NCBI GenBank assembly: GCA_947463335.1
Contig: CANHRF010000013.1
Span: forward strand, 1 to 12,984
Length of the DNA stretch: 12,984 bases
Reading direction: 5' to 3'
DNA from: Actinomycetota bacterium
GTDB taxonomy: Bacteria; Actinomycetota; Actinomycetes; Nanopelagicales; Nanopelagicaceae
The position numbers and the translations under genes are program-made. This document shows positions 1-11,525 of this stretch, in pieces; within the stretch, counting starts at the first letter, position 1; each line of letters opens with the position of its first letter. The notes under the pieces are model-generated. The model saw only the letters and a program-made list of their open reading frames with translations, ran no database searches and was not told the origin of the DNA.

Positions 1-943
1 CCGTCGCGAAGAAGAGATGGTTCTTGGCGTATCCCTGACCAGTTAGAGATTGCCAGAACCCATGGTGAGACGCTTTCAGAGTATTCAGGATCTCGATTAG
101 CGAAGAATGAAGATAGACCTCGCGAACCTGTCCCGTCTTCGTCGTACCGGTAAGAGATTCGTTCTTGCTTCCTCTTTGTCGGCTCTTCCTGATAATTATT
201 CGACCTTCAATCGGATCGAAGTCGTCCCAAGTTAGAGCCAAGAGTTCGCCGGATCTTGCGCCCGTGTGGACACTTAATCGGAAGAACGCATAAAGACGCT
301 TAAAGTCCTTATGGCTCTTTACATAGTCCAAGAATTGAATGACTTGTTCGTCTGTCCAAGGGACAAACTTCTTAGTCTTAACTTTTGGAGTCTGTACGAA
401 TTGAGCAGGATTCGAAGGAATACATTTCTCGACATTCACGGCGTACTTCAAGCCCGTCTTCAAAACGAGTTTGATATTTTCCACCGATCCGGTCGAAAGA
501 GGCTTTCCCGTCTTTGAGCCTTCTCGCAATAGATACGAATAGAACTCGCCTATGTGAAGAGGCTTGAGTTTGCCTATTGGGATCTCCCCAAGTCTCGGAA
601 TGATGTAACTATCTACATTCATTCGATAGCGACCTGCCGTGGACGCTTTGACCTTTAGCGAATGAGTCACGATCCAACGATTGAAGAACTCCCCTACGGT
701 AAGACTCGTTTTAGCGAATCTTTCTCCGTTATGGGCTTCGTATCTTGCTCGATCTCGAGCCTTAATCGCTTCTTCCATAGTCTCGAAAGTTCCCACGCGA
801 ACGATCTTCTTAAAGAAGTTTCCGGTCTCGGGATCTACTCCACGCGAAGGATCGGGAAGGCTAACGCGTACCGCGTAACTATCGCCACGCTTTGCGATCC
901 CGTCTTTTTGCTTAGTGGACGCGCCTTTCTTGTCTAAACGCAT
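1..943 (-). CDS. Phage-type tyrosine recombinase (integrase), 3' end outside the window
   Basis: Translating the minus strand from the ATG at 943 gives an open frame of 314 residues that runs off the left edge. It should carry out site-specific integration and excision of the surrounding element. Residues 1-75 look like an AP2-type arm-binding region (KRGDSYAVRVSLPDP). Residues about 80-185 form the SAM-like core-binding domain (LTVGEFFNRWIV). The catalytic domain follows, with the first catalytic arginine in HTGARSGELLALTW (R230) and the beta-strand lysine in TTKTGQVREVYL (K269). The HxxR box and nucleophilic tyrosine should lie beyond the window. A stop codon a few codons upstream makes 943 the first ATG. 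The start overlaps the end of the preceding gene by 10 bases, suggesting coupled translation. The family is clear; specificity for the tRNA site at 4630-4657 is inferred. Confidence 0.93.
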   Translation of the reverse strand, partial: MRLDKKGASTKQKDGIAKRGDSYAVRVSLPDPSRGVDPETGNFFKKIVRVGTFETMEEAIKARDRARYEAHNGERFAKTSLTVGEFFNRWIVTHSLKVKASTAGRYRMNVDSYIIPRLGEIPIGKLKPLHIGEFYSYLLREGSKTGKPLSTGSVENIKLVLKTGLKYAVNVEKCIPSNPAQFVQTPKVKTKKFVPWTDEQVIQFLDYVKSHKDFKRLYAFFRLSVHTGARSGELLALTWDDFDPIEGRIIIRKSRQRGSKNESLTGTTKTGQVREVYLHSSLIEILNTLKASHHGFWQSLTGQGYAKNHLFFAT

Positions 944-1320
944 GATGATGTCGTTTCTAGGTTTCTAACCATTCCAGATGACCAAATCCAAAGTTTTGTA
1001 AAGTTTGAAGATCCACAACGCTTAAAGGCTTCTAACGATTTTAGTCGTGCATCTATCGCGTTTAGTTTTAGAGATACAGAATCATTATCAGAATCATTAC
1101 CTTGAATTAAGGGTTCTATTTCTTTCTGAAGTATTTCGACAGCATTACTCCAAGCCCCTAAATCATTTTTTAGCGTTGAGACCGATTTTTGAAGTTGCTG
1201 AAACTGTTTTAGCGTCGGTGCGCTCGTAGGTGCGGAATTGGCTTGAGAAGCCGTTGCTATCCCAAAAAATACGAGTGAAGCCGATAGAACATAGATTGGA
1301 ATATCCTTACTCTTATTCAT
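934..1320 (-). CDS. Small secreted coiled-coil protein of unknown function
   Basis: A 128-residue protein I do not recognise. Residues 1-30 look like a Sec signal peptide: a lysine near the N terminus, a hydrophobic run (IYVLSASLVFFGIA) and an alanine-rich cleavage region (ASQANSA). Residues about 37-100 form heptad-like helices (LKQFQQLQKSVSTLKNDL, then LKLNAIDARLKSLEAF), suggesting an extracytoplasmic coiled coil. Two cysteines sit in the last third. The ATG overlaps the stop of the upstream gene as ATGA, with AAAGGA as ribosome binding site, and the 3' end overlaps the integrase start by 10 bases, so it is embedded in the integrase operon. A secreted protein there is odd; a role in exclusion or surface modification is possible but unsupported. 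Confidence 0.75.
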   Translation of the reverse strand: MNKSKDIPIYVLSASLVFFGIATASQANSAPTSAPTLKQFQQLQKSVSTLKNDLGAWSNAVEILQKEIEPLIQGNDSDNDSVSLKLNAIDARLKSLEAFKRCGSSNFTKLWIWSSGMVRNLETTSSCV

Positions 1321-2057
1321 TTTGATCCTTTCTTTCGTTGATTAGATTTTGTGCTTTCCATTTTGGGAATGGAAACCTTGTTTTCCTTATTTAAGTAACC
1401 GGTTAGACGAGCCCGTTTTATTTTGTATTCAGCACCTTTGATATCTAATCCAAAATATCGTGCTACTTCTTGTCCGTGCTTTGATCGCTTACCAGAGTTT
1501 TTTGCACGCCAATAGTTTTCTTCCACAATTTGAGCCGTCTTGAGAAGTTCTTCCTCTGTATATCCTCTTCGATCTATGACCTTTTCGAAGCGCCTCTTTA
1601 GAGATTTATGATCTACATTCTCAAAACCCTTTGATCCAAGTTCCCATTGACCGGAATCAAGTGAATCTCTTTTCACCTTTACAGGGAACGACCAATCTTC
1701 CTTTGAGCCTTCGTACCTAAAGTACTCAATCGCATAAATAGCAGAGTCGGTAAGTAGTTCATTCAGATTTTGCTGAGTTAGTTCGATCTGCCATTTCTCG
1801 ATCGGTTCATAATCTTCAAAAGGCTTGAAGCCTTTACGAAAGAATTTTTCGTTTGTGAATCCTCGAACCAACACTTCCGAGGCTTGCGGTGTACCTGCCT
1901 CACCGATCTTGACTTGCAATTCAATAACCCACCTACGATCAAATTCAAGATCTTCAACTAAAAAGAAGGTTCGAAAAGTTTCAGGTATAAGAAAACCGTT
2001 TGATTCGACGGGTTCGGGATAACCGACTAGAAGACCGCCAATTTGTTTGAACTTCAT
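1317..2057 (-). CDS. Integrase-operon protein with C-terminal helix-turn-helix, possible regulator
   Basis: A 246-residue protein starting at the ATG at 2057, preceded by a purine-rich GGGGAG; an in-frame TTG at 2072 would add five residues but the ribosome binding site would then lie inside the gene. Residues 1-125 are mixed alpha/beta with no family I recognise. Residues about 160-222 are helical and end in EVARYFGLDIKGAEYKIKRA followed by RLTGYL, the pattern of a helix-turn-helix seen at the C terminus of many actinobacterial mobile-element proteins. The tail is lysine-rich and basic. It is the first gene of the leftward operon, beside the divergent control region and opposite the excisionase gene, which is where satellites and prophages often encode their switch regulator. 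DNA binding is a reasonable guess; a master-repressor role is inference. Confidence 0.75.
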   Translation of the reverse strand: MKFKQIGGLLVGYPEPVESNGFLIPETFRTFFLVEDLEFDRRWVIELQVKIGEAGTPQASEVLVRGFTNEKFFRKGFKPFEDYEPIEKWQIELTQQNLNELLTDSAIYAIEYFRYEGSKEDWSFPVKVKRDSLDSGQWELGSKGFENVDHKSLKRRFEKVIDRRGYTEEELLKTAQIVEENYWRAKNSGKRSKHGQEVARYFGLDIKGAEYKIKRARLTGYLNKENKVSIPKMESTKSNQRKKGSK

Positions 2058-2085
2058 CTTCTCCCCTGCCAAATGATCTTTTATT

Positions 2086-2147
2086 TAGGGAGATAAGTCC
2101 CTAGTACATAGGAGACGATAGCACTACATAGGGACATAAGTAGTCCC
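2086..2147. promoter_or_regulatory. Divergent control region with repeated palindromic boxes
   Basis: Between the leftward integrase operon and the rightward excisionase operon lie two related boxes. Box A at 2086-2103 is the perfect inverted repeat TAGGGAGATAAGTCCCTA. Box B at 2129-2147 begins TAGGGACATAAGT and closes with GTCCC. They share 13 bases with one mismatch and start 43 bp apart, about four helical turns. A second pair, TACATAGG at 2105-2112 and 2125-2132, is spaced 20 bp. This is the arrangement expected of operators controlling both directions. The binding protein is not known; the two nearby helix-turn-helix proteins are candidates. Confidence 0.6.
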
Positions 2148-2169
2148 AAGACACTCTGAAAGGTTCTAT

Positions 2170-2364
2170 ATGGAAACCCAAGCCCTACCTCAACTCCACG
2201 CGATAAGCGTCGTCTCGATCAGAACTTCACTTTCGAGATCTGCAATTTATCGCGAGATCTCTTCCGGTCGCCTTCGTGCGGTCAAAATTGGAAAGTCTGT
2301 ACGCGTTACGGAAGAAGATCTTCAAGCGTTTATCGCTTCTCTTCAATCGGCAAAAGCGATCTGA
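2170..2364 (+). CDS. Excisionase-family (MerR-like helix-turn-helix) DNA-binding protein
   Basis: A 64-residue protein of the small excisionase/HTH_17 type. These bind next to attachment sites to direct excision by the integrase, and sometimes act as regulators. Residues about 12-58 carry the diagnostic pattern: a helix-turn-helix (SLSRSAIYREISSGRLRAVK), a wing (IGKSVRVTEEDL) and a closing helix (QAFIASL). The length matches the family. The start ATG at 2170 has GAAAGG about seven bases upstream. It is the first gene rightward from the control region at 2086-2147 and lies one base from the next start. A purely regulatory role cannot be excluded; family assignment is confident. Confidence 0.85.
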   Translation: METQALPQLHAISVVSIRTSLSRSAIYREISSGRLRAVKIGKSVRVTEEDLQAFIASLQSAKAI

Positions 2365-2365
2365 A

Positions 2366-2644
2366 ATGAAAATGACGAAAGCCTCGCCTTACGGCGAGAC
2401 TCCCGAACCCAAGGGAATTTTACCGTTCTTCTCAGACAATTCGCCAATCTCTGAAGATGAATGGCTTCGTGTTCGATTGGTGGCACTTACAAAGCCACGA
2501 GTTCAAGAGCCAAGCCAACTTCGAGCAGACCGGAATCGAATCGAATCTGCTCGCAAAACTTATGAACACTTCCAAGAGATCGGACTTTCACCGATCTTTA
2601 ACTCTTTCGAATATGAGGCTCTGTCTCTGATTGGAGTCGCGTGA
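2366..2644 (+). CDS. Small hypothetical protein between excisionase and ATPase genes
   Basis: A 92-residue protein I do not recognise. The frame is open further upstream, to 2276, but that would overlap the excisionase gene almost entirely; the ATG at 2366, one base after the excisionase stop, is the sensible start (a second ATG lies at 2372). It is soluble and charged, with no signal peptide or membrane segment. The second half is helical and rich in arginine and glutamate (RADRNRIESARKTYEHFQEI). Its stop overlaps the ATPase start as GTGA, so the two are translationally coupled and probably work together. Replication accessory or DNA binding is a guess from context only. Confidence 0.7.
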   Translation: MKMTKASPYGETPEPKGILPFFSDNSPISEDEWLRVRLVALTKPRVQEPSQLRADRNRIESARKTYEHFQEIGLSPIFNSFEYEALSLIGVA

Positions 2645-3741
2645 TACTCGACGATATTGAAAACCTACTTAAAAGATCGGTCATTCTAAAAAGTGAGGCT
2701 CACTATGTAGCCGAAACTTTGTGGATTGCTCACACTTATTTCATTTCCGAATTGGACTTCTCGCCAAGATTAGCGATTTGGTCGCCTGAGAAGCGGTGTG
2801 GAAAGACTCTGAACTTAGAGATTGTCGAACTACTTTCGAAGAAGGCTCGACGGACTTCCTCTATGTCTCCTGCAGTTCTATTTAGAATGATTTCCTTAGA
2901 CGAGACCACCGTCTTCCTCATAGATGAATCGGATCGTATCTTTTCGAAGAAAGCCGATAAGGAAAGAGCCGAGGCTATGACTTCACTTATTAACACGGGC
3001 TTCAAGCGTGGTTCTAGTGTGTGGAGATGTAAGCCGAACACCTTAGAACCGGAAGAGTTCTCAACTTTTGCACCCGTAGCCCTTGCCGGAATTGGAACGA
3101 GTTCGATACCGGACACGGTTCAGGATCGAGCCTTGGTGATCGAAATGCGTAGAAAGTTTCCGAATGAGGAGATTGAAGAGTTTCAAAGTGACGAAGAAGA
3201 AGCGATCTTTGCGCCTTTGCGTGAAGCCTTGGATTCGTGGTCTCAAGAGATTCGAGATCAGATAAGACCTTGCAGACCTGAACTCCCGAACGAACTTCAT
3301 TCAAGAGCCAAGGATTGTTGGAAGCCTCTATTCAAGATCGCAACTTATGCCGGATCTGATTGGCTTGAGAAGACTCGTAAGGCGTCTCTTGAGTTATCTC
3401 TTAACGAAGCCGACGACGACGATAAAAGTTATTCACTTCGTCTCTTATCTGATTGCCGTGAGGTTTTCGATTGCATTGAGTTAGGTTCTCAAGCCTTGGT
3501 TGAACGCCTATGTGAGATCGAAGAAGCGCCTTACGGTCACGGAGATCACCGACTCAACACGGCTTCTCTTGCTCGAAACTTAAAGACTTACGGAATCCGT
3601 CCAACTCGTACGAACAAACTTCGTCTCTACCGTCGAGAAGACTTTCAAGAGGCTTGGGATCGTTACTTACCTGTACGCCTAGAAAGCGTCACACCCGTCA
3701 CACCCGTCACGATTGAAGATGAACCCGATTCTTTGTGGTGA
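2641..3741 (+). CDS. DUF3631-type P-loop ATPase, probable replication protein of the element
   Basis: A 366-residue cytoplasmic ATPase. Residues 48-56 form a P-loop variant (SPEKRCGKT), residues 91-98 a Walker B strand (VFLIDESD), and VQDRALVIEMRR around 160-171 supplies a likely arginine finger. The C-terminal half, ending near LYRREDFQEAWDRYLP, matches the layout of the DUF3631 domain found in phage, plasmid and satellite primase/helicase proteins, here without a fused primase domain. It most likely acts in DNA unwinding or replication initiation. The start is GTG at 2641, overlapping the previous stop. The last residues include VTPVTPVT, encoded by three 9-bp repeats that continue in inverted form just after the stop. 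ATPase and family are well supported; the helicase role is inferred from relatives. Confidence 0.85.
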   Translation: MILDDIENLLKRSVILKSEAHYVAETLWIAHTYFISELDFSPRLAIWSPEKRCGKTLNLEIVELLSKKARRTSSMSPAVLFRMISLDETTVFLIDESDRIFSKKADKERAEAMTSLINTGFKRGSSVWRCKPNTLEPEEFSTFAPVALAGIGTSSIPDTVQDRALVIEMRRKFPNEEIEEFQSDEEEAIFAPLREALDSWSQEIRDQIRPCRPELPNELHSRAKDCWKPLFKIATYAGSDWLEKTRKASLELSLNEADDDDKSYSLRLLSDCREVFDCIELGSQALVERLCEIEEAPYGHGDHRLNTASLARNLKTYGIRPTRTNKLRLYRREDFQEAWDRYLPVRLESVTPVTPVTIEDEPDSLW

Positions 3742-3762
3742 CGCAAGTGACGCAAGTGACGG
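3688..3762. repeat. Two triplets of 9-bp repeats in opposite orientation around the ATPase stop codon
   Basis: Three GTCAC units at a 9-bp period (3688, 3697, 3706; linker ACCC) lie inside the end of the ATPase gene. After 27 bases, three GTGAC units at the same period (3738, 3747, 3756; linker GCAA) follow across and beyond the stop codon. GTCAC and GTGAC are reverse complements, so six copies of one core form two inverted clusters that could fold into a cruciform or bind a protein cooperatively. Iteron-like origin sequence and transcript hairpin are both possible. Confidence 0.7.
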
Positions 3763-3779
3763 CATTTGGGAAGGGTGGT

Positions 3780-3819
3780 GGAGACTTTTTATTTAGCGGT
3801 TTCCACCGCCTATGTCTCC
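3780..3819. repeat. Nested inverted repeat downstream of the ATPase gene
   Basis: GGAGAC at 3780-3785 pairs with GTCTCC at 3814-3819. Inside it, GCGGT at 3796-3800 and ACCGC at 3805-3809 form a tight hairpin with a TTCC loop. There is no T-run directly after the outer arm, so this is not a clean intrinsic terminator. It may be a structured origin element or a transcript structure; no gene overlaps it. Confidence 0.5.
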
Positions 3820-3893
3820 CGAGGTTTTCTTTCACCACGAAATTACCACTTAGGTTTGTTTAGTAGTAAAGGGTCTAGGCGTAGGCTTCACCT

Positions 3894-4058
3894 ATGGGTC
3901 TGTTCTTAATCTGGCTATTTAGTTCAATATTCCTCTATGCGATTCTTTCAGCCGTGAATCTCGGCGCATTAACTGGCTTAGTTTCGTTCGTGCTTCCTTT
4001 GATTATTTTGGCGTACTATCACGAAAAGAAAAAGGACGATCCTTACAAAGATTGGTAG
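3894..4058 (+). CDS. 54-residue two-helix membrane protein
   Basis: A short open frame from ATG 3894 to TAG 4058. Residues 3-21 (LFLIWLFSSIFLYAILSAV) and about 24-42 (GALTGLVSFVLPLIILAYY) are two hydrophobic helices joined by a short turn. A strongly charged tail follows (HEKKKDDPYKDW). A hairpin membrane protein with its charged tail in the cytoplasm is the straightforward reading. The upstream ribosome binding site is weak. It sits in the replication-end module of the element, as does the second small membrane protein at 4250. Function unknown; holin-like or superinfection-exclusion roles occur for such proteins in phage elements, but nothing here decides it. Confidence 0.6.
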   Translation: MGLFLIWLFSSIFLYAILSAVNLGALTGLVSFVLPLIILAYYHEKKKDDPYKDW

Positions 4059-4075
4059 TTTTTTAGGTACACCCG

Positions 4076-4145
4076 CTACCCACCCTGTATCTCTTTCGCG
4101 TTTTTTTGCGGAGATTTTTTTAGGGTGAGCGTCTACCCACCCTGT
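4076..4145. repeat. 13-bp direct repeat flanking a terminator hairpin
   Basis: CTACCCACCCTGT occurs at 4076-4088 and again at 4133-4145, starts 57 bp apart. The two copies bracket the hairpin at 4089-4121. CACCCT inside the first copy can also pair with AGGGTG at 4122-4127, extending the hairpin stem. An exact 13-base duplication in noncoding sequence is unlikely by chance and suggests a protein-binding or replication site. Confidence 0.6.
4089..4121 (+). terminator. Probable rho-independent terminator
   Basis: ATCTC at 4089-4093 pairs with GAGAT at 4111-4115, reinforced by an inner CGC/GCG pairing around a T-rich loop. The right arm runs straight into seven T residues, the mark of an intrinsic terminator reading rightward. 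It would end transcripts from the excisionase-ATPase operon and the 54-residue membrane gene. Confidence 0.6.
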
Positions 4146-4162
4146 CTTTTAGACCTTCCTCT

Positions 4163-4212
4163 CCCCGATTTAGACCGGAAAGCCCCGATTTAGGCGCAAC
4201 TAGCCCGATCTG
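4163..4212. repeat. Three boxes at an exact 20-bp period (iteron-like)
   Basis: CCCCGATTTAG is found at 4163-4173 and 4183-4193, and a diverged copy GCCCGATCTGA at 4203-4213. The starts are spaced exactly 20 bp, about two helical turns, which places the boxes on one face of the DNA. Such short, helically phased repeats downstream of a replication ATPase are typical of iteron origins, though the array is short. Replication function is inferred. Confidence 0.55.
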
Positions 4213-4249
4213 AAACTTTCAGGGAAGAATAAAACACGGAGAGTCAAGG

Positions 4250-4483
4250 GTGTTCATTCCGTATCAAAAAAACTACCCTAGGGATATGTCTCAAGAAACT
4301 TCAATGCCAAAGATCGGCTCAATCAGTTTTTTAATTTCGCTTTGGATTCTAATATTTTATTGGGATTTCGGTTGGGTTATGACCTTGATTATGATTCTAC
4401 CAATGACCGCCCTTGTTGGAATGGGCTTAGCGATTGCCTTGGAATGGGTAATCGAGCCACTAGTTCGGTGGATAAATAAATAA
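4250..4483 (+). CDS. 77-residue small membrane protein
   Basis: The frame starts at GTG 4250 with GGAG at 4238-4241, eight bases upstream; ATG 4286 is an alternative giving 65 residues. After a polar N terminus of about 22 residues come two closely spaced hydrophobic stretches, ISFLISLWILIFYWDFGWVM and then a run ending in ALVGMGLAIALEWVI, followed by a short basic end (RWINK). A two-helix inner-membrane protein is the simplest reading. It lies after the 20-bp repeats and is the last gene before the attachment site. I do not recognise a family. Its hydrophobic composition and good ribosome binding site argue that it is real. Confidence 0.6.
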   Translation: MFIPYQKNYPRDMSQETSMPKIGSISFLISLWILIFYWDFGWVMTLIMILPMTALVGMGLAIALEWVIEPLVRWINK

Positions 4484-4490
4484 TCGGTAT

Positions 4491-4509
4491 TGGTCTTTTT
4501 TGGTCTTTT
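4491..4509. repeat. Tandem 9-bp repeat near the attachment site
   Basis: TGGTCTTTT is repeated at 4491-4499 and 4501-4509, a 10-bp period, about 120 bases inside the right junction. Tyrosine integrases with an arm-binding N-terminal domain use short direct repeats at this distance from the core site, so these may be arm-type integrase sites. The rest of 4484-4629 shows only a small GCGT/ACGC hairpin at 4536-4547 and no gene. Confidence 0.4.
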
Positions 4510-4629
4510 GAAGTTTTGTTCCTAATCGTCTCCCTGCGTTTTTACGCTTAATTTCAGGATCTAGACGGAAGCCAAGAACGATCACGCACGCTCAGAGACG
4601 CTATTTGTAATTCTAATAACTCGGTCGTC

Positions 4630-4657
4630 GTCGGTTCAAGTCCGACCCGTCCCACCA
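4630..4657 (+). other. Attachment site: 3' fragment of a tRNA gene
   Basis: GTCGG, loop TTCAAGT and CCGAC (4630-4646) form a perfect T arm. CCGTCCC, discriminator A and encoded CCA (4647-4657) complete the 3' acceptor strand. The matching 5' acceptor GGGACGG and a D arm are absent upstream, and the sequence before the T arm does not fold an anticodon stem, so this is not a whole tRNA. It is the expected right junction of an element inserted in a tRNA gene; the duplicated core may extend left toward about 4610. Amino-acid identity cannot be told from this part. Confidence 0.85.
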
Positions 4658-4766
4658 GATTGTTCTCCTGCAATATTTATCAACTGATTTAGATGCTTAA
4701 CCTTTTAACTTGGAAGGATCCCAGCTCCTATATCAATCTGTGAATACGGTGTGGCAGTATCTACCT

Positions 4767-6524
4767 ATGTTTATCAGGGGTCGATTTAAGGTCTCGTTAC
4801 TGACTTTGCTGGTGTCCTGCCTAACAATCACACTGGCTGACCCGTCGCACGCGCGAGTTGATAACTATGGAAACCCCATCCCAAAAGATAGCTACGCTGT
4901 TATTTACGATAGCGGGGCGATGGTTTTTCACCCATCTGCAAATTGGAGTTCTCCACCGAGCAGTAAGTCAGGTAAATACGGAATTCAAATTAGCCTTCCA
5001 GTCTGTGAAAACGGATTGGAAACGGATTGCATCTCAAATCTCAACTACTCGGATGATTCTGGAAAAATCATAAAGGGAATATTTGATTCTTACCTACCAA
5101 TCACTTGGGACGGTTTCTACGCTGGTTGTGACTTTAATGATTGTGCGCCGACCACGCCACCTTGGAAATTCTCTGAAGGAAAAGTTTCCACTAAAGCAGA
5201 CTTGCAGCGCCGTATCCCGATCGGCTCAAAGCCAAGTCTTTGGACCTTTCCTGGGCTACGACATTCAGGTGGAGATAAATATCTTGCCAGTTTTGCGATT
5301 CAAGGGTTAATGTCAAACCAATCTGCACCACTTGATAAAGGAAGTATCGCTTTATGGTCTGGTGGTGCAATTAACATTGAAATCACTCCGGTGATTATCG
5401 AGAGAAACGCAGAATGGGAATCGATTGATCCTTGGGCGCAGAGTTATGCAATTCCCCAAACAGGGCTCTGGAATGAATCAAATCTCTGGTGCTTCTCGGG
5501 AGAGAAGTCCGGAAACCCTTACTGCTTACGTAGAGTGACAGATAATTCCGCGCGCACATTTGAGTTAAAAGCAAAGTTAAATTATCTAGCAGAAGCCTTT
5601 GCTTCGCATGCATTCATGGTCTCTCGCACCCTTGGAGCGCGAGCAGTATCCAAGAAAACAGCGGGACTGTTGGAAGTCTCATTCGCTGGGAGCACGAGCC
5701 CAGTCTCATCTGCCATCGGGTATTTACCCAGGAATGAATTTGGATTTAGAGAGATGGTTAAGGCAACGAACAAGTCTTACCGAGAAAGTGGTGTTACTAA
5801 TCCGCAGTTAGATGAAAACCAATTATCTGGGTGTGATCCGAAATCCAAGGAAAATTGCATAGACTTTCAGAACTGGATTACTAATGCGACCGGAATAAGT
5901 GAGGATGGATCCGCACCAGGGGCTATCGGCTCTTGGAGCAGTTATGAAAAAGTCATCGACTTTAAACCAGTACGACCGAGTTCAGTATGGTTTTTTAGAT
6001 CGGCTGGTATTTTATCGACGGACTTCACTTGGCTAACCTCCTGCAAAAAAGAAATTGGCGTCTCAGGGGTAATAAGTTCAAACGCTACCGTCATGAAACC
6101 AACTCCCCCTGTGTGGAACTCGCAAGAAAGAAGCCTAGATTTTAAAATTGGATCCCCGCATCTAGATGAGAGTGGAAAGGTTGCATCAGGTTTTTACAAC
6201 TTAGCAATTAGCGAGGCTGTTGCAAAGTGTCTCTGGGGTAAAGATGTGACGGCGGCAAGAGCCACTATTTCTGTAATTAATGATGCCGGTGAAGTCAAGA
6301 CATTTACTTCCAGCATGAAAGTTGCTAATGGCTACCTCAACTTTCAGGTTTCCGGGTTCACATATTCGGTAAATAAAATTTCCATCACCTTCGGCAAAGA
6401 TTCCACACCCGCAATGAGCAGCCCAACAAAGCTAAAATCTATATCTTGCAAAAAAGGCAAGGTAACTAAGGTAGTTAGCGCTAAATCTCCAAAGTGCCCG
6501 AAGGGTTATAAGAAGGTTACATAA
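4767..6524 (+). CDS. Large secreted protein of unknown function with two-cysteine lysine-rich C-terminal tail
   Basis: The frame is open from 4710 (TTG), but the ATG at 4767 gives a 585-residue protein beginning with a clear Sec signal peptide: basic MFIRGRFK, a hydrophobic core (VSLLTLLVSCLTITLA) and a cleavage region ending SHA. No good ribosome binding site precedes any candidate start. The mature protein is rich in W, Y, S, G and paired cysteines, looks like an extracellular beta-rich protein, and lacks catalytic motifs I can name. The last 25 residues (SCKKGKVTKVVSAKSPKCPK, then GYKKVT) resemble a short tail I associate with actinobacterial exported proteins, perhaps for wall attachment. 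It begins about 110 bases past the attachment site, so it is chromosomal, and ends 21 bases from a convergent dehydrogenase. Confidence 0.8.
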   Translation: MFIRGRFKVSLLTLLVSCLTITLADPSHARVDNYGNPIPKDSYAVIYDSGAMVFHPSANWSSPPSSKSGKYGIQISLPVCENGLETDCISNLNYSDDSGKIIKGIFDSYLPITWDGFYAGCDFNDCAPTTPPWKFSEGKVSTKADLQRRIPIGSKPSLWTFPGLRHSGGDKYLASFAIQGLMSNQSAPLDKGSIALWSGGAINIEITPVIIERNAEWESIDPWAQSYAIPQTGLWNESNLWCFSGEKSGNPYCLRRVTDNSARTFELKAKLNYLAEAFASHAFMVSRTLGARAVSKKTAGLLEVSFAGSTSPVSSAIGYLPRNEFGFREMVKATNKSYRESGVTNPQLDENQLSGCDPKSKENCIDFQNWITNATGISEDGSAPGAIGSWSSYEKVIDFKPVRPSSVWFFRSAGILSTDFTWLTSCKKEIGVSGVISSNATVMKPTPPVWNSQERSLDFKIGSPHLDESGKVASGFYNLAISEAVAKCLWGKDVTAARATISVINDAGEVKTFTSSMKVANGYLNFQVSGFTYSVNKISITFGKDSTPAMSSPTKLKSISCKKGKVTKVVSAKSPKCPKGYKKVT

Positions 6525-6545
6525 TCATTGTTTATGAATCTAAAT

Positions 6546-7526
6546 TCAGTGGTTTATATCGACAGCAGTTCCGGTAGAGATTGATTGCTCACATGCAATT
6601 GCCACCCGCAACGCTTCACGAGCAGAATTTGGCGGACAAGGATTGGCGATCTCACCTTTAGTAAATCGATGAAAGGCTTCGGACTCGCTGGCAAAAGCTT
6701 CGCGGAATCTTTCGATAAATCCTTTATATCTCACTGGGGCAAAATTTAATTGGCCTTCGATGTCGTGAATAGGTGTCTTTTGATTTAAACCAACCGCGAT
6801 CGAATCACGGGATCCAAATACTTCAAAGCGCACATCGTGCCCCACTGGGTTATGGCGCGTACCCGTAATCGCAACTTGAACTCCAGATTCAGTTGTTAGA
6901 GAAATTAGCGAAACATCGGCATCTTCATATTTGGCATATTGCTGATGCTCGCGCACCGCCTGGGTGGCATAAACTTTTGAAATCTCACTTTGTGTCAGCC
7001 AACGGATTAAATCAAAGTCGTGTACGTGAAGGTCGCGATAGATGCTTCCGCTTCCTTCTAAGAATTCCAAAGTTGAAGGTTGGTGGTCGTGGGCATACAT
7101 ATGCATGGCATAAAGGGTTCCAACCTCACCTGAAGAAATCGCTTTCGCTGCAAGCGCGATCGGCGGATCAAAGCGGCGCTGAAAACCCACTTGAATTTCG
7201 GTGCCGTATTTTGCGCACTTTTCAATTACCAAGTCAGTCTCTTCGACTGTGAGCGAGATGGGTTTTTCGCAGAGAATTGGTTTGCCCAATGGAATCAACT
7301 TTTCCAGGATTTCAATATGTGAATTAGTTGCTGTTGCAACAACATAGCCATCAAAGCTCTGGCTAAATAAATCTGAATAGCTGCCGGAATCGCACTTTAA
7401 CTTCACCGCTAACTCTCTCGAAGCATCATCTCTGCGGCTAAAGATTGTGACATCTGCACCAGACGAGATTAAATCTTCGGAGCGAATAGCGCCCATGCGT
7501 CCCGCGCCAATAACAGCGATTCTCAT
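6546..7526 (-). CDS. iolG: Gfo/Idh/MocA-family dehydrogenase, probable inositol 2-dehydrogenase
   Basis: A 326-residue NAD(P)-dependent dehydrogenase. Residues 1-12 carry the Rossmann signature (IAVIGAGRMG), residues 87-89 the EKP motif, and YRDLHVHDFDLIRW (about 163-176) supplies the D-x3-H pair (D165, H169) used in catalysis by this family. Length is typical of IolG, which oxidises myo-inositol to scyllo-inosose, the first step of the pathway. The start ATG at 7526 has AGAGGA seven bases upstream. It is transcribed divergently from the iolC operon across a 93-base shared regulatory region, which supports an inositol role. Some relatives act on other sugars or on scyllo-inositol, so substrate is inferred from motif and context. 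Confidence 0.8.
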   Translation of the reverse strand: MRIAVIGAGRMGAIRSEDLISSGADVTIFSRRDDASRELAVKLKCDSGSYSDLFSQSFDGYVVATATNSHIEILEKLIPLGKPILCEKPISLTVEETDLVIEKCAKYGTEIQVGFQRRFDPPIALAAKAISSGEVGTLYAMHMYAHDHQPSTLEFLEGSGSIYRDLHVHDFDLIRWLTQSEISKVYATQAVREHQQYAKYEDADVSLISLTTESGVQVAITGTRHNPVGHDVRFEVFGSRDSIAVGLNQKTPIHDIEGQLNFAPVRYKGFIERFREAFASESEAFHRFTKGEIANPCPPNSAREALRVAIACEQSISTGTAVDINH

Positions 7527-7564
7527 GGCCTGATCCTCTCGAAATTCCGCTCAACAAGGCCTTC

Positions 7565-7615
7565 ACTATATAGTTTGCACTATCAATTATGAAGCGCCGC
7601 TGTTCTATCAGATAG
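7565..7615. promoter_or_regulatory. Divergent promoter/operator region of the inositol genes
   Basis: The 93-base gap between the divergent dehydrogenase and iolC must hold both promoters. It contains the perfect palindrome ACTATATAGT (7565-7574), whose TATAGT is a plausible -10 on either strand, a lone ACTAT at 7579-7583, and CTATC-A-GATAG (7605-7615), which overlaps the iolC ribosome binding site. The recurring CTAT half-site suggests binding of one repressor; no regulator gene lies in the window. Confidence 0.4.
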
Positions 7616-7619
7616 GAAA

Positions 7620-8576
7620 ATGATGGCAATTAATCTTGATCTGATAACAGTCGGACGAATCAGCGTCGATCTCTTTGCTGAACAAATCAACACCTCTTTT
7701 AGCGAGCCACAGACTTTCCATAAATCAATTGGCGGCTCCCCCACAAATGTTGCAGTTGCCGCAGCGCGCTTAGGTCACACCAGCGCAATCATTACCAAGG
7801 TCGGTGTAGATCCCCTTGGGCAATACGTTGTAAAGAAGTTGCAAGAATTTGGAGTAAATACCGATTTTGTAAAGGTGGCGGAAAGCGGACTCACTCCAGT
7901 TGTTCTTGCTTCACAAGATCCACCTGAGGATCCAAAAATTGTCTTCCATCGTCAGCCCAGCGCACCTGATACACAGTTAACTCTTAACGATATTGATTCA
8001 CAGACTTTATTGGCTGCGAAAATCTTCTGGGTAAGCGCGTGCGCTTTATCAAATGGTGAAACTGCGAAGAGCGCGGTTAAGTGGTTAGAAATGCGCGAAA
8101 GAAGAGCAGAATCAATTATCGATCTAGATTACCGACCATCATTTTGGCCAAACGTTGAAGCTGCACGCGTAGCCGCACAAGAAGCGATTTCACATTGCAC
8201 TATTGCTATTGGAAATATTGCAGAATGCCAGGTGGCTCTTGGTATTTCTGATCCACAAACAGCAGCTGATGATCTTTTGAATCGTGGTGTTCGCTTAGCG
8301 ATAGTGAAAATGGGTGGCGATGGCGTTCTGCTCGCGACTAAAGAGGAACGAATCGTTATCGAGCCGCTTTCAATAAAGTTGGTCTGTGGCTTAGGTGCGG
8401 GTGATGCCTTTGGAGGTGCGCTGGTTCACGGCTTGTTAAGCGGTTGGAATCTGAAGCAAATTGGAGAATTTGCTAACGCCGCTGGTGCGTACTTAGCTTC
8501 TGAGTTAATGTGCTCTGATGCTATGCCAACTATCGAAGTTCTAAATAGCTTTATCAAAACAGGAGGTAAGCGGTAA
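7620..8576 (+). CDS. iolC: 5-dehydro-2-deoxygluconokinase (PfkB family)
   Basis: A 318-residue sugar kinase that phosphorylates 2-deoxy-5-keto-D-gluconate to its 6-phosphate with ATP. The N-terminal PfkB signature is GGSPTNVAVAAARLG (residues 38-52). The C-terminal signature CGLGAGDAFGGALVHGL (from about 256) contains the catalytic aspartate in GAGD (D262). The early lines ITVGRISVDLFAEQ and VGVDPLGQYV are typical of IolC rather than ribokinase or fructokinase. AGGA precedes the ATG at 7620; ATG 7623 is equally possible. It leads a four-gene plus-strand operon, and its TAA overlaps the next ATG by one base (TAATG). Confidence 0.9.
   Translation: MMAINLDLITVGRISVDLFAEQINTSFSEPQTFHKSIGGSPTNVAVAAARLGHTSAIITKVGVDPLGQYVVKKLQEFGVNTDFVKVAESGLTPVVLASQDPPEDPKIVFHRQPSAPDTQLTLNDIDSQTLLAAKIFWVSACALSNGETAKSAVKWLEMRERRAESIIDLDYRPSFWPNVEAARVAAQEAISHCTIAIGNIAECQVALGISDPQTAADDLLNRGVRLAIVKMGGDGVLLATKEERIVIEPLSIKLVCGLGAGDAFGGALVHGLLSGWNLKQIGEFANAAGAYLASELMCSDAMPTIEVLNSFIKTGGKR
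8561..8566 (+). promoter_or_regulatory. Consensus ribosome binding site for the aldolase gene
   Basis: AGGAGG lies inside the last codons of iolC, nine bases before the ATG at 8576. It fixes that start and is the strongest Shine-Dalgarno sequence in the operon. Confidence 0.8.
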
Positions 8577-9466
8577 TGACTCTCGACCGTAAGCGCTATC
8601 TCGAATTAATTGATGCTCGAATCCACAACCCAGCATCGCTGCAAACAGCGCTAAAGAAACGTGCGCGCAGAACCGTTGCAGGTAAAGATGGAAAGCTGAT
8701 GTTGCTTGCCGCAGATCACACAGCGCGTGGAATTATCGCCGCCGGAAAGAATCCAACAGCGATTGCAGATCGTTTTCTTTTATTGGATAAGTTGATTCGC
8801 GGCTTAGCCGTTGCTGGCGTCGATGGCGTTATGGCGAGTGCTGATATTTTGGAAGAGTTAGCTTGGTTGGGCGCGCTTGAAGAAAAAGTAGCGATCGGCA
8901 CAATGAACCGTGGTGGAATCATTGGCGCATCTTGGGAACTCGACGATCGTTTATCGGCCTACGATGCTGAACACGTTAGATCAATGGGCCTTGATGGCGG
9001 AAAGACGCTTCTGCGCATAGATGAGTCAGATCCTGGTGTGGCGCGAACAATTGAAATGGTCGCAAAGGTCACTACTCAGCTCGCAGATCTAGAACTTGTT
9101 TCTATGATCGAACCGCTTCCATTTATCAAGAACGCCGATGGAAGAGCTGTTCTCGATCCATCGGAAGAGAAGTTGATCAAAGTTGTTTCAATTGCATCTG
9201 GGTTGGGCTCATCTTCAGCATTTACCTGGTTGAAGATTCCGGCGCCGACAAATCCAGAAAAAGTCGCAGCGGCTACCAGTTGTCCAATTTTATTGTTGGG
9301 CGGAGATCCCGGAAGTAATTGGGAAGAAGTCTTTGCTAAATGGGAGAAGGCTTTAACGGTTCCAAATATCCGCGGTCTGGTTCCGGGTCGCGCGCTGCTT
9401 TACGGAGAAGAATTAAGCGTTGAAGCTGCCGTGGCTCGCGCAGCCAAGATGGTCAGAAAAGGTTGA
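8576..9466 (+). CDS. DeoC/LacD-like (beta/alpha)8 aldolase of the inositol cluster (Cgl0159-like)
   Basis: A 296-residue TIM-barrel protein. Strand motifs are visible in order: LMLLAADHTARG (41-52), GVDGVMAS (81-88), VAIGTMNRGG (105-114), GGKTLLRID (141-149), VSMIEPLPF (175-183), TWLKIPAP (217-224, with K220 the likely Schiff-base lysine), CPILLLGGDPG (236-246) and RGLVPGRALLY near the end, which should form a phosphate site. It resembles the protein encoded beside iolC in Corynebacterium glutamicum (Cgl0159 family). Placed between iolC and iolB, it most likely cleaves 2-deoxy-5-keto-gluconate 6-phosphate to dihydroxyacetone phosphate and malonate semialdehyde, replacing the class II aldolase IolJ. 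The fold is well supported; the reaction is inferred from context. Confidence 0.8.
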   Translation: MTLDRKRYLELIDARIHNPASLQTALKKRARRTVAGKDGKLMLLAADHTARGIIAAGKNPTAIADRFLLLDKLIRGLAVAGVDGVMASADILEELAWLGALEEKVAIGTMNRGGIIGASWELDDRLSAYDAEHVRSMGLDGGKTLLRIDESDPGVARTIEMVAKVTTQLADLELVSMIEPLPFIKNADGRAVLDPSEEKLIKVVSIASGLGSSSAFTWLKIPAPTNPEKVAAATSCPILLLGGDPGSNWEEVFAKWEKALTVPNIRGLVPGRALLYGEELSVEAAVARAAKMVRKG

Positions 9467-9468
9467 TG

Positions 9469-10359
9469 ATGAGTTGGTATAAACCTGCTGGAACTTTAGC
9501 TACTGCGGAAGCAGAAATTTTCTTAACCCCTCAGGATGCGCAATGGGAGTTCTGTGGTTTTTACACTTACAACTTTGCCAAGAGCAAGGAAGTAAAGGTT
9601 GAACTAAAGGGACGCGAAGCGATTCTGCTCCCTCTCTCAGCGCAAGATGTAAAGGTGGAAGTAGATGGTCAATCTTTCACTCTAAAGGGCCGTACGGGAG
9701 TCTTCGCCGCTGTATCCGATTGGATTTATCTACCAGTTGGCTCAACTGTGAAGTTTTCCGGGTCAACTGGCGAGGTAGCGTTGTTAACAGCAGAAGCAAG
9801 TGAGAAATTTCCCGTTTGCTACACCCCCGCGGAAACCGTTCCAGTTGAAGTTCGTGGCTCAGGTAAAGCAACTCGTCAGGTTAATAACATTGCTACCCCA
9901 ACAAGCTTTACCGCTTGCCATAAAATTTTAGTTTGCGAAGTAATTACACCTGGTGGAAATCTCTCTTCTTGGCCTCCACACCGCCACGATAAATTCCCAG
10001 GTTGTCCCACAATCAATGAAGAGGTTTATTACTTCCAAATTGGTAAAGAAGGTTCTGACCATGGCGATCCTGAAGGCGTTGGGTTCTTCCACGTTTACAC
10101 AGTCGATGGCAGCGTAGATGAGACGGTAACTCTTCACGATAAAGATATCTACGTTGTTCCTCACGGTTACCACGGACCGTCAATTGCATCACCTGAATAT
10201 CCAATGTACTTTTTAAATGTGATGGCTGGCCCTGCGCCAGAGCGAAGCATGGCTTTCTGTGATGATCCAGCACATCACTGGATTAGAGATTCATGGAACG
10301 ATCAAGTGCAAGATCCCCGTTGTCCAGTTACTTCAGCCCAAGGCAAGGTGAAAAAATGA
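9469..10359 (+). CDS. iolB: 5-deoxy-glucuronate isomerase
   Basis: A bicupin isomerase of about 296 residues that converts 5-deoxy-D-glucuronate to 2-deoxy-5-keto-D-gluconate, the substrate of IolC. Diagnostic stretches are the metal site WPPHRHDKFPGCPTINEEVY, the second-site strand VGFFHVYT, VPHGYHGPS and YFLNVMAGP, with H and E ligands in the expected order; length is typical. Three in-frame starts lie together (TTG 9463, ATG 9466, ATG 9469); AAAAGG at 9457-9462 fits 9469 best with a six-base spacing, while 9466 would overlap the aldolase TGA by one base. The stop overlaps the next gene as ATGA. Confidence 0.92.
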   Translation: MSWYKPAGTLATAEAEIFLTPQDAQWEFCGFYTYNFAKSKEVKVELKGREAILLPLSAQDVKVEVDGQSFTLKGRTGVFAAVSDWIYLPVGSTVKFSGSTGEVALLTAEASEKFPVCYTPAETVPVEVRGSGKATRQVNNIATPTSFTACHKILVCEVITPGGNLSSWPPHRHDKFPGCPTINEEVYYFQIGKEGSDHGDPEGVGFFHVYTVDGSVDETVTLHDKDIYVVPHGYHGPSIASPEYPMYFLNVMAGPAPERSMAFCDDPAHHWIRDSWNDQVQDPRCPVTSAQGKVKK

Positions 10360-11525
10360 AGAAAGATATCCGCATCGCAGTACTCGGCCTTGGTTGGATG
10401 GGACAGGCGCACTCCCGCTCTGCTCTTCGCATCCCTTCACTTTTTCCTGAAAGAGGTTTTCAACCAATCCTCCAAGTTTGTGCTGATGTAGATCCTGCGC
10501 GACAGAAGAGCGCCGTTGAGAATTACGGATTTGCTCGCGCGACCGGTGATTGGATGGAAGCGGCTACTGCAGATGATGTCGATGCAGTTTGGGTAACAGC
10601 TCCAAATATGTTGCACCTGCCAATGATCGAAGCAGCGACAAAGGCTGGCAAAGCGGTATTTAGCGAGAAGCCAATTGGTGGAAAGCCAGAACAAACTGTT
10701 GAAGCTTATAAATTAGCGAAGAACGCTGGCGTTCCAACTGGAGTTGGCTACAACTATGTATGGGCCCCTCTTGTATTGCACGCGAAGAATCTGATTGCGA
10801 GCGGTGCACTCGGAGAAATCACGCATTATCGCGGACGTTTCTTGAGTATGTATGGCAGCGATGAACTTGGGTTACTTACCTGGCGATTTAAGTTAGCTGA
10901 TGCTGGCTATGGAGTATCAAGCGATATTTTGAGCCACAGCGTTTCTATGGCGCAATTTTTAGTAGGTCCGATCTCTGAGGTTGTCGGAATGCAGAACACC
11001 ACAATTAAAGAGCGTCCCCTACCTTCCGCAAATGCCAGCCATTACTCACGTGGCAAAGCAAGTGATCCAAAGGGCGTTGTGGAAAATGAAGATTTCGCAT
11101 CAATGCTCTGCACATTCGCAAATGGCGCGACCGGAACATTCGAAGTTAGCCGCACAGTCGTTGGTCCAGAAAGCCAGAACGCCTTCGAGATCTATGGCAC
11201 CAAAGGATCTCTGCTCTGGAATCTAGAGAAGATCAACGAATTGCAGTATTACGAACTCGGAACATCACTCAACACTGGTTACACAACAATCTACGGTGGA
11301 GATCGCTTCCCATTCCACGGAGCTTTTGTGCCAGGCCAAGCAAATGCCATTGGCTTTGAAGACCTAGTTGCGATTGAAGATTATGCATTTATGCAATCAA
11401 TCGTCGAGGGTAAGAAATTTGGACAGAGCTTCAAAGAGGCAGTTGATGTGGTTAGCGTGCAGCAAGCACTCATTAACTCTTGGAGCTCACGTACTTGGGA
11501 GAGCGTTAAAGATTTAAGTCTTTAA
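10356..11525 (+). CDS. Second Gfo/Idh/MocA-family dehydrogenase of the inositol operon
   Basis: A 389-residue NAD(P)-dependent sugar or polyol dehydrogenase. The frame extends upstream to 10293, but AAGG plus an ATGA overlap with iolB makes ATG 10356 the start, followed at once by the Rossmann strand IRIAVLGLGWMG (G11-G16). FSEKPIGGKP (EKP 104-106) and SSDILSHSV (D190, H194) are the catalytic family motifs. It is longer than the dehydrogenase at 6546-7526 and clearly a different subfamily. As last gene of the operon it may act on scyllo-inositol, another inositol isomer, or reduce inosose; the sequence alone does not decide. Its 3' end overlaps the convergent ligase gene by 20 bases. Confidence 0.85.
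   Translation: MKKDIRIAVLGLGWMGQAHSRSALRIPSLFPERGFQPILQVCADVDPARQKSAVENYGFARATGDWMEAATADDVDAVWVTAPNMLHLPMIEAATKAGKAVFSEKPIGGKPEQTVEAYKLAKNAGVPTGVGYNYVWAPLVLHAKNLIASGALGEITHYRGRFLSMYGSDELGLLTWRFKLADAGYGVSSDILSHSVSMAQFLVGPISEVVGMQNTTIKERPLPSANASHYSRGKASDPKGVVENEDFASMLCTFANGATGTFEVSRTVVGPESQNAFEIYGTKGSLLWNLEKINELQYYELGTSLNTGYTTIYGGDRFPFHGAFVPGQANAIGFEDLVAIEDYAFMQSIVEGKKFGQSFKEAVDVVSVQQALINSWSSRTWESVKDLSL

Follow-up and report, generated by a model that had tools for sequence, protein, structure and literature searches.

The window analyzed here, 12,984 nucleotides of a Nanopelagicaceae genome (contig CANHRF010000013.1, assembly GCA_947463335.1), contains at positions 1–4657 nearly the whole of a small integrative element; the remaining ~0.3 kb lie off the left edge. 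The longest contig listed for the window's own regulator candidate measures 12,984 bases, so this edge probably coincides with a metagenome contig end. Bacteria of the acI/Nanopelagicales group are abundant in freshwaters worldwide, and their phages have been isolated only recently (PMC10202952). Two divergent gene sets occupy the left 4.66 kb. On the minus strand lie the genes of a tyrosine integrase (2–943; PF14659 9.8e-13, PF00589 2.9e-07, phrog_1 1.4e-44), a 128-amino-acid (aa) protein (934–1320) and a candidate regulator (1317–2057), with overlaps of 10 nt between the first two and 4 nt between the last two. The plus strand encodes an excisionase/AlpA-like small DNA-binding protein (2170–2364), a 92-aa protein (2366–2644), an ATPase of the DUF3631 family (2641–3741; PF12307 2.9e-39, together with a structural model and fold comparison) whose gene overlaps the preceding one by 4 nt, and two small open reading frames (ORFs). 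The integrase is cut by the left edge: 314 residues are visible, and alignment to ten relatives puts the absent part at ~81–89 residues. The excisionase matches HTH_17 (8.4e-09) and TIGR01764 (35.3 bits, above the cut-off of 28.8) and scores 13.9 bits (E 0.051) against the AlpA profile, below the cut-off of 21. A first-pass annotation, made by a model from the sequence, had named integrase, excisionase and ATPase and had likened the divergent order to that of phage-inducible chromosomal islands (PICIs); the profile matches and the gene order bear it out on both counts.

The region between the two gene sets (2073–2169) presumably holds their promoters and operators; its RNA-fold z-score of −1.66 speaks to folding only. 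The gene to its left encodes a protein of 246 aa, or 251 aa with a TTG start at 2072, which is conserved in 25 homologues of 51–100% identity and is a regulator candidate by position. The annotation had called it a helix-turn-helix (HTH) protein. A conserved gene does stand at the regulator position; profile scans gave no accepted HTH family, its final helices alone look HTH-like, and the best model (pLDDT 77.6) matched no known fold at E 0.001. The 128-aa protein, taken from the ORF list and with a Spectrin match below cut-off, combines a signal-peptide-like start with a coiled-coil-like body, so that a signal-peptide-like protein sits within the integrase operon.

Downstream of the ATPase gene lie the two putative plus-strand ORFs, both from the ORF list: one of 54 aa with a membrane-like stretch (3894–4058; no accepted family) and one of 77 aa with membrane-like stretches (4250–4483; no family). 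Between them a 30-nt direct repeat occurs in two copies (4059–4088 and 4116–4145) that agree at 24 of 30 positions, a level reached by none of 300 shuffles. Three CCCGATYTR motifs follow on the plus strand at an exact 20-bp spacing (4164–4212), a pattern that makes them possible iterons; their copy number does not support this assignment, three CCCGAT-type copies being reached in 49 of 300 shuffles. The zone had been described as repeat-rich, which holds for the direct repeat and not for the motifs. Eight ORFs of the element were scanned, within the visible ~4.66 of its ~5.0 kb. They gave no match to terminase, capsid, FtsK or relaxase, as the annotation had said of all but FtsK, none to head, tail or packaging families up to E 1e-3 (one tail match at E 0.1 is at chance level), and none to primase families, DUF3631 occupying the replication position. 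A defense function was rejected, PADLOC matches being weak only, and Rfam returned nothing at gathering threshold. The G+C content is 38–49%, the element being similar to its flank.

The right end of the element is an attR site (4613–4657, plus strand) that copies the last 45 nt of tRNA-Met(CAT) with 43 of 45 identities, the last 37 unbroken, in agreement with the tRNA attachment site first proposed; no intact tRNA lies within the window. Relatives were reached through a DUF3631 locus (L001, genome G001), and 296 genomes of one order, small genomes of about 0.7–2.2 Mb, were compared. The right flank (4660–11500) matched 47 of them, with long matches at 15 loci (L138–L152). At ten of these the tRNA and an iolG-like gene could be read on one contig (L168, L169, L170, L171, L173, L174, L175, L177, L221, L222); L145 and L152 show no tRNA before the contig ends (667 and 142 bp seen), and L149, L150 and L151 begin too far to the right. 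The order HAD hydrolase, tRNA-Met(CAT), iolG-like gene is found in all ten, the hydrolase being identified by Pfam in one and 88–95% identical in the other nine. Five of the ten (L170, L171, L173, L174, L175) are empty sites in which the tRNA ends at most 20 bp from the iolG-like ORF, and the other five have different DNA in between. Because attR matches the tRNA of this locus and relatives have empty sites, the window represents the occupied form, and the intact tRNA is expected off its left edge, ending ~320–367 bp beyond position 1 with the HAD-hydrolase gene as its neighbor. The first-pass annotation had suggested comparing presence and absence at the same tRNA; the window is occupied there and five relatives are empty. 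Relatives of the ATPase are sporadic, occurring in 2 of the 296 genomes.

Various other contents were seen between tRNA-Met and the iolG-like gene. One genome (G189) has a single 549-aa gene there. In G129, G130 and G128, whose loci are among L168, L169, L177 and L222, the interval spans ~7 kb with ABC-transporter and sugar genes by eye, and in G128 the HAD gene and tRNA-Met are both duplicated. In G229 (L221) the interval is ~3 kb; the last ~42 nt of tRNA-Met (7390–7464) recur 1.66 kb downstream (5728–5769), and tRNA and copy flank, with no integrase, a 504-aa gene, suggesting either a cassette with att sites on both sides or the decayed remains of an element. This gene belongs to the family of a 604-aa secreted-type protein encoded in the window (4710–6524), a lineage-expanded family with matches in 168 of the 296 genomes, up to seven per genome, many of them limited to the final ~160 residues. 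All positions to the right of 4657, and with them the 604-aa gene, are outside the att-to-att unit, and this position rules the gene out as cargo.

From the alignment of the truncated integrase to its ten relatives, the full element is forecast to measure 4,977–5,024 bp. Among the best 120 of 473 ATPase homologues, the longest contig is 4.7–5.3 kb in 27, against five in the 600 bp below this range and four in the 600 bp above. As a control, an aldolase that the window encodes outside the element gave contigs of that size for 3 of the best 120 of 6,049 homologues (Fisher p 2e-6; identities range over 50–97% in the first list and 82–94% in the second, and rows are non-independent). Homologues of the regulator candidate fall in the same size range in 6 of 25 cases, against one and none in the adjoining bins. 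A discrete unit of ~5 kb is found repeatedly in nature. This unit may be a circle, or assemblies may stop at the junction of occupied and empty sites.

The surroundings of the nearest integrases were compared with the window. Matches to the integrase were found in 46 of the 296 genomes, and the ten with E < 1e-20 (37–50% identity, in eight genomes) were taken together with their neighborhoods, the weaker matches in 38 further genomes being left out. Each of the ten is directed toward a tRNA gene (Arg, Thr, Lys, Met, Asn or Val) and ends 65–97 bp from its 3' end; two use a tRNA-Met, identical to the focal tRNA-Met at 69 and 68 of 75 positions. The relative in G079 (L216) belongs to a complete element with the same layout, 4,914 bp long and bounded by tRNA-Lys repeats (44/45); it carries int, a 259-aa gene and a divergent xis, as well as an initiator of weak O-like character (phrog_270, 2.5e-6) and an ORF of secreted type. 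In G001 (L001) a 7,606-bp element occupies a tRNA-Arg (repeats 42/45); its excisionase, 92-aa-protein counterpart at the same position and ATPase are 60%, 36% and 52% identical to those of the window, and the proteins at the regulator position show no likeness by BLAST. The same tRNA-Arg site holds in L219 a 3,043-bp unit (43/45) with a shortened integrase. L215 is incomplete, L212, L217, L218 and L220 extend past the ends of their contigs, and L213 yielded no second att copy. One genome (G199) has three related integrases (L213, L217, L218), each at a different tRNA gene (Thr, Asn, Val). L001 and L002, a second DUF3631 locus, come from records labeled Bifidobacterium breve and Oligoflexia, respectively; both labels are doubtful.

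A gene that may act in packaging appears in two sister elements. The element in G110 (L214) has the same chassis of int, regulator and divergent xis, followed by a 305-aa gene of no family and then a 157-aa gene. The latter shares 95% identity with a gene of L002 that lies after the DUF3631 gene there. The DNA homology between the two loci (88.9% over 594 nt) starts within the 3' tail of the ATPase gene in L002 and the genes upstream differ, which suggests that replication modules were swapped in front of the shared 157-aa gene; the sister elements thus seem to form a satellite-like mosaic. The 157-aa protein belongs to phrog_645. At the three viral loci with long matches (L178–L180; a fourth match, of 41 residues only, was left out), the phrog_645 homologue stands directly before the next gene and overlaps it, and that next gene is the terminase large subunit by PHROG in both of the loci tested. 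We read the 157-aa gene as terS-like (terminase small subunit) by position and homology; phrog_645 is annotated, perhaps wrongly, as "RNase E" and may instead be a TerS family. Six ORFs scanned in L002 include none that resembles TerL, the L214 contig ends right after the 157-aa gene, and the terS-like protein has no match in the phage collection at 1e-5.

The DUF3631 ATPase is predicted to be an MCM-like AAA+ helicase. An MCM-type AAA+ core fold is present in its model by fold comparison, and no sequence profile identifies the protein as MCM. A 64% homologue (P0015) comes from an "Actinomycetales" metagenome-assembled genome, related ATPases of 30–43% identity are found in viral contigs, and DUF3631 also occurs on two Streptomyces plasmids of 13.5–14.3 kb. 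The domain is the RepAM protein of pMEA300-type actinomycete integrative and conjugative elements (AICEs), whose Rep types are RepSA, RepAM/DUF3631 and Prim-Pol, and it is found in conjugative elements (PMC3218068). In the literature searched DUF3631 is named in a single paper, as a predicted rolling-circle initiator. A further DUF3631 locus (L172 in G203, 35%) was set aside, all its genes being on one strand. In a Mycolicibacter genome (L004, 7178–13985) the DUF3631 gene has on one side a recombinase-like ORF, which by eye is a serine recombinase, and on the other a capsid gene (phrog_10, 5.7e-18). This arrangement presumably resembles that of phiRv1-type elements.

No FtsK domain was detected in 24 viral DUF3631 records or on the L001 and L002 contigs, and in four other DUF3631 genomes the FtsK matches lie on other contigs (by contig number) or ~99 kb away, so that FtsK is near DUF3631 in none of the 30 genomes or records tested. 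TerL_ATPase is present in seven of the 30, all viral records and six above cut-off, a count that is too low because the profile misses the TerL of L081. L081 and L082 each combine the ATPase with HNH and TerL genes in one record, and L004 has its capsid gene. As judged from sequence, phage-borne transfer is favored by these neighbors of DUF3631, by the terS mosaic and by the gene layout.

Several described systems resemble the element in part. It shares with the phage-inducible chromosomal minimalist islands (PICMIs) of Vibrionaceae a size of ~5–7 kb, an int gene overlapping a small gene, as in most PICMI subfamilies (here by the 10 nt shared with the 128-aa gene), and an AlpA/Xis-type protein followed by a small gene and a replication gene, with no terS or capsid gene (PMC10803314). 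It differs in its site (tRNA-Met rather than fis), in an MCM-like ATPase in place of the prim primase, in an AlpA profile score below cut-off and in its phylum. PICMIs are induced and packaged by a virulent helper, using its heads and apparently headful packaging (PMC10803314); for the present element a helper is proposed. PICIs and the Staphylococcus aureus pathogenicity islands (SaPIs) have in common with it int and a regulator (here assigned by position) divergent from xis and replication genes, a tRNA-type att site and, in its sisters, terS (PMC10690885). Such islands redirect packaging through terS, another gene or a helper cos/pac site, and their excision and packaging are induced by a helper; the ORFs scanned here include no packaging-redirection gene, a cos/pac site would be recognizable only by reference to a helper, and none has been demonstrated. 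The element is also less than half the usual size of these islands. The AICE pMEA300, of RepAM type, matches it in the DUF3631 replication protein, tyrosine integrase, excisionase and tRNA 3' end, but the present element is ~5 kb long and shows no FtsK/SpoIIIE transfer gene among the ORFs scanned (PMC3218068). Virion-encapsidated integrative mobile elements (VEIMEs) and tycheposons are likewise small integrative elements of streamlined plankton with an integrase (PMC10803314, PMC11389934, PMC10690885), and tycheposons use tRNA sites including tRNA-Met (PMC10803314, PMC11389934, PMC10690885, PMC10872708); they are recognized by encapsidation in virions and by family marker genes, and our element, for which encapsidation is a proposal, has no clear cargo. 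None of the literature matches listed joins satellites with acI/Nanopelagicales, the scope of the search excluding subscription literature and the papers that first described VEIMEs and tycheposons, in which an earlier account may exist.

Taken together, we consider it probable that the ~5.0-kb integrative element belongs to a family in small-genome actinobacteria and lives as a minimal, PICMI-like phage satellite. Its mobility is well supported; its dependence on a helper is what we infer. In the model we propose, Int inserts the element at the 3' end of tRNA-Met and leaves the copy at 4613–4657, a step that sequence comparison shows. At rest, the operon of int, the 128-aa gene and the regulator would be on and the divergent operon of xis, the 92-aa gene and the helicase off, until a helper phage lifts repression. 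Xis and Int would then excise a circle, the MCM-like ATPase would drive its replication, perhaps from the repeats 3' of its gene, and helper terminase and heads would carry the DNA. Recognition through a DNA site is proposed because the element is without terS. In sister elements this chassis is combined with different replication genes and in some cases with a terS of their own.

Several observations weigh against life as a phage satellite. The element has no packaging gene among the ORFs scanned, and no helper is known for it; the terS assignment in its sisters is made from position and homology. No relative of its integrase or regulator was found in IMG/VR, whose viral contigs contain neither the att sequence nor the 30-nt repeat pattern, and the phage collection gave no DNA match at 1e-5; the ~5-kb contigs, too, could reflect assembly breaks at att sites rather than circles. 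The 66% ATPase homologue P0010 has no confirmed relative among IMG/VR viral contigs either, and the plasmid collection likewise gave no DNA match at 1e-5. The term "satellite" of the first-pass annotation gains indirect backing, from two sisters with a terS-like gene and no visible TerL and from the absence of FtsK near DUF3631, and none from a packaging gene in the element itself. Less probable, but deserving serious attention, is a plasmid-like integrative or a mobilizable element unconnected with phages, which would excise, replicate by means of its MCM-like helicase and spread by competence, generalized transduction or the machinery of another element: the focal genes all serve integration, excision or replication or have no assigned function, relatives are absent from IMG/VR, and DUF3631 is found in conjugative elements (PMC3218068) as well as on the two Streptomyces plasmids. 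The terS-like genes on the same chassis in sister elements weigh against it.

Membership in the AICEs was rejected, no FtsK gene being found among the scanned ORFs or near DUF3631. A reduced AICE surviving as a relic after the loss of its FtsK-type transfer gene would explain the RepAM-type protein and the tyrosine integrase directed to a tRNA 3' end (PMC3218068). We hold it to be unlikely, as the 0/30 count for FtsK, the conserved size and recurring metagenome unit, which speak against decay, and the association of the nearest integrases with other replication genes all run counter to it. A prophage was rejected for want of virion genes in the eight ORFs; descent from a larger one would account for a phage-type integrase and excisionase and for the ATPases of viral contigs at 30–43% identity, yet two other att-bounded relatives also have no virion gene among their scanned ORFs and the ~5-kb unit recurs, making such a remnant very improbable. 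An ordinary stretch of fixed chromosome with a chance tRNA-like sequence is scarcely credible: its G+C is like that of the flank, but 43 of 45 positions match the tRNA of this very locus in relatives, and the five empty sites among ten relatives contradict the absence of empty sites that the annotation had named as grounds for abandoning its proposal.

Returning to the element as a minimal phage satellite, we extend the proposal more tentatively to its kin, in a form that could well fall either way. Small-genome freshwater actinobacteria may harbor a family of ~3–8-kb phage satellites built on one chassis, a tRNA-directed int with its regulator and a divergent xis, with freely swapped replication modules, among them the MCM-like helicase hitherto known as an unexplained DUF, and an optional terS; the ~5-kb metagenome contigs would be its excised or packaged genomes. 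If this is true, parasites of phages have a place even in streamlined genomes, and the element would be one of the smallest natural satellites. DUF3631, for its part, gains a testable predicted role as an MCM-like replicative helicase.

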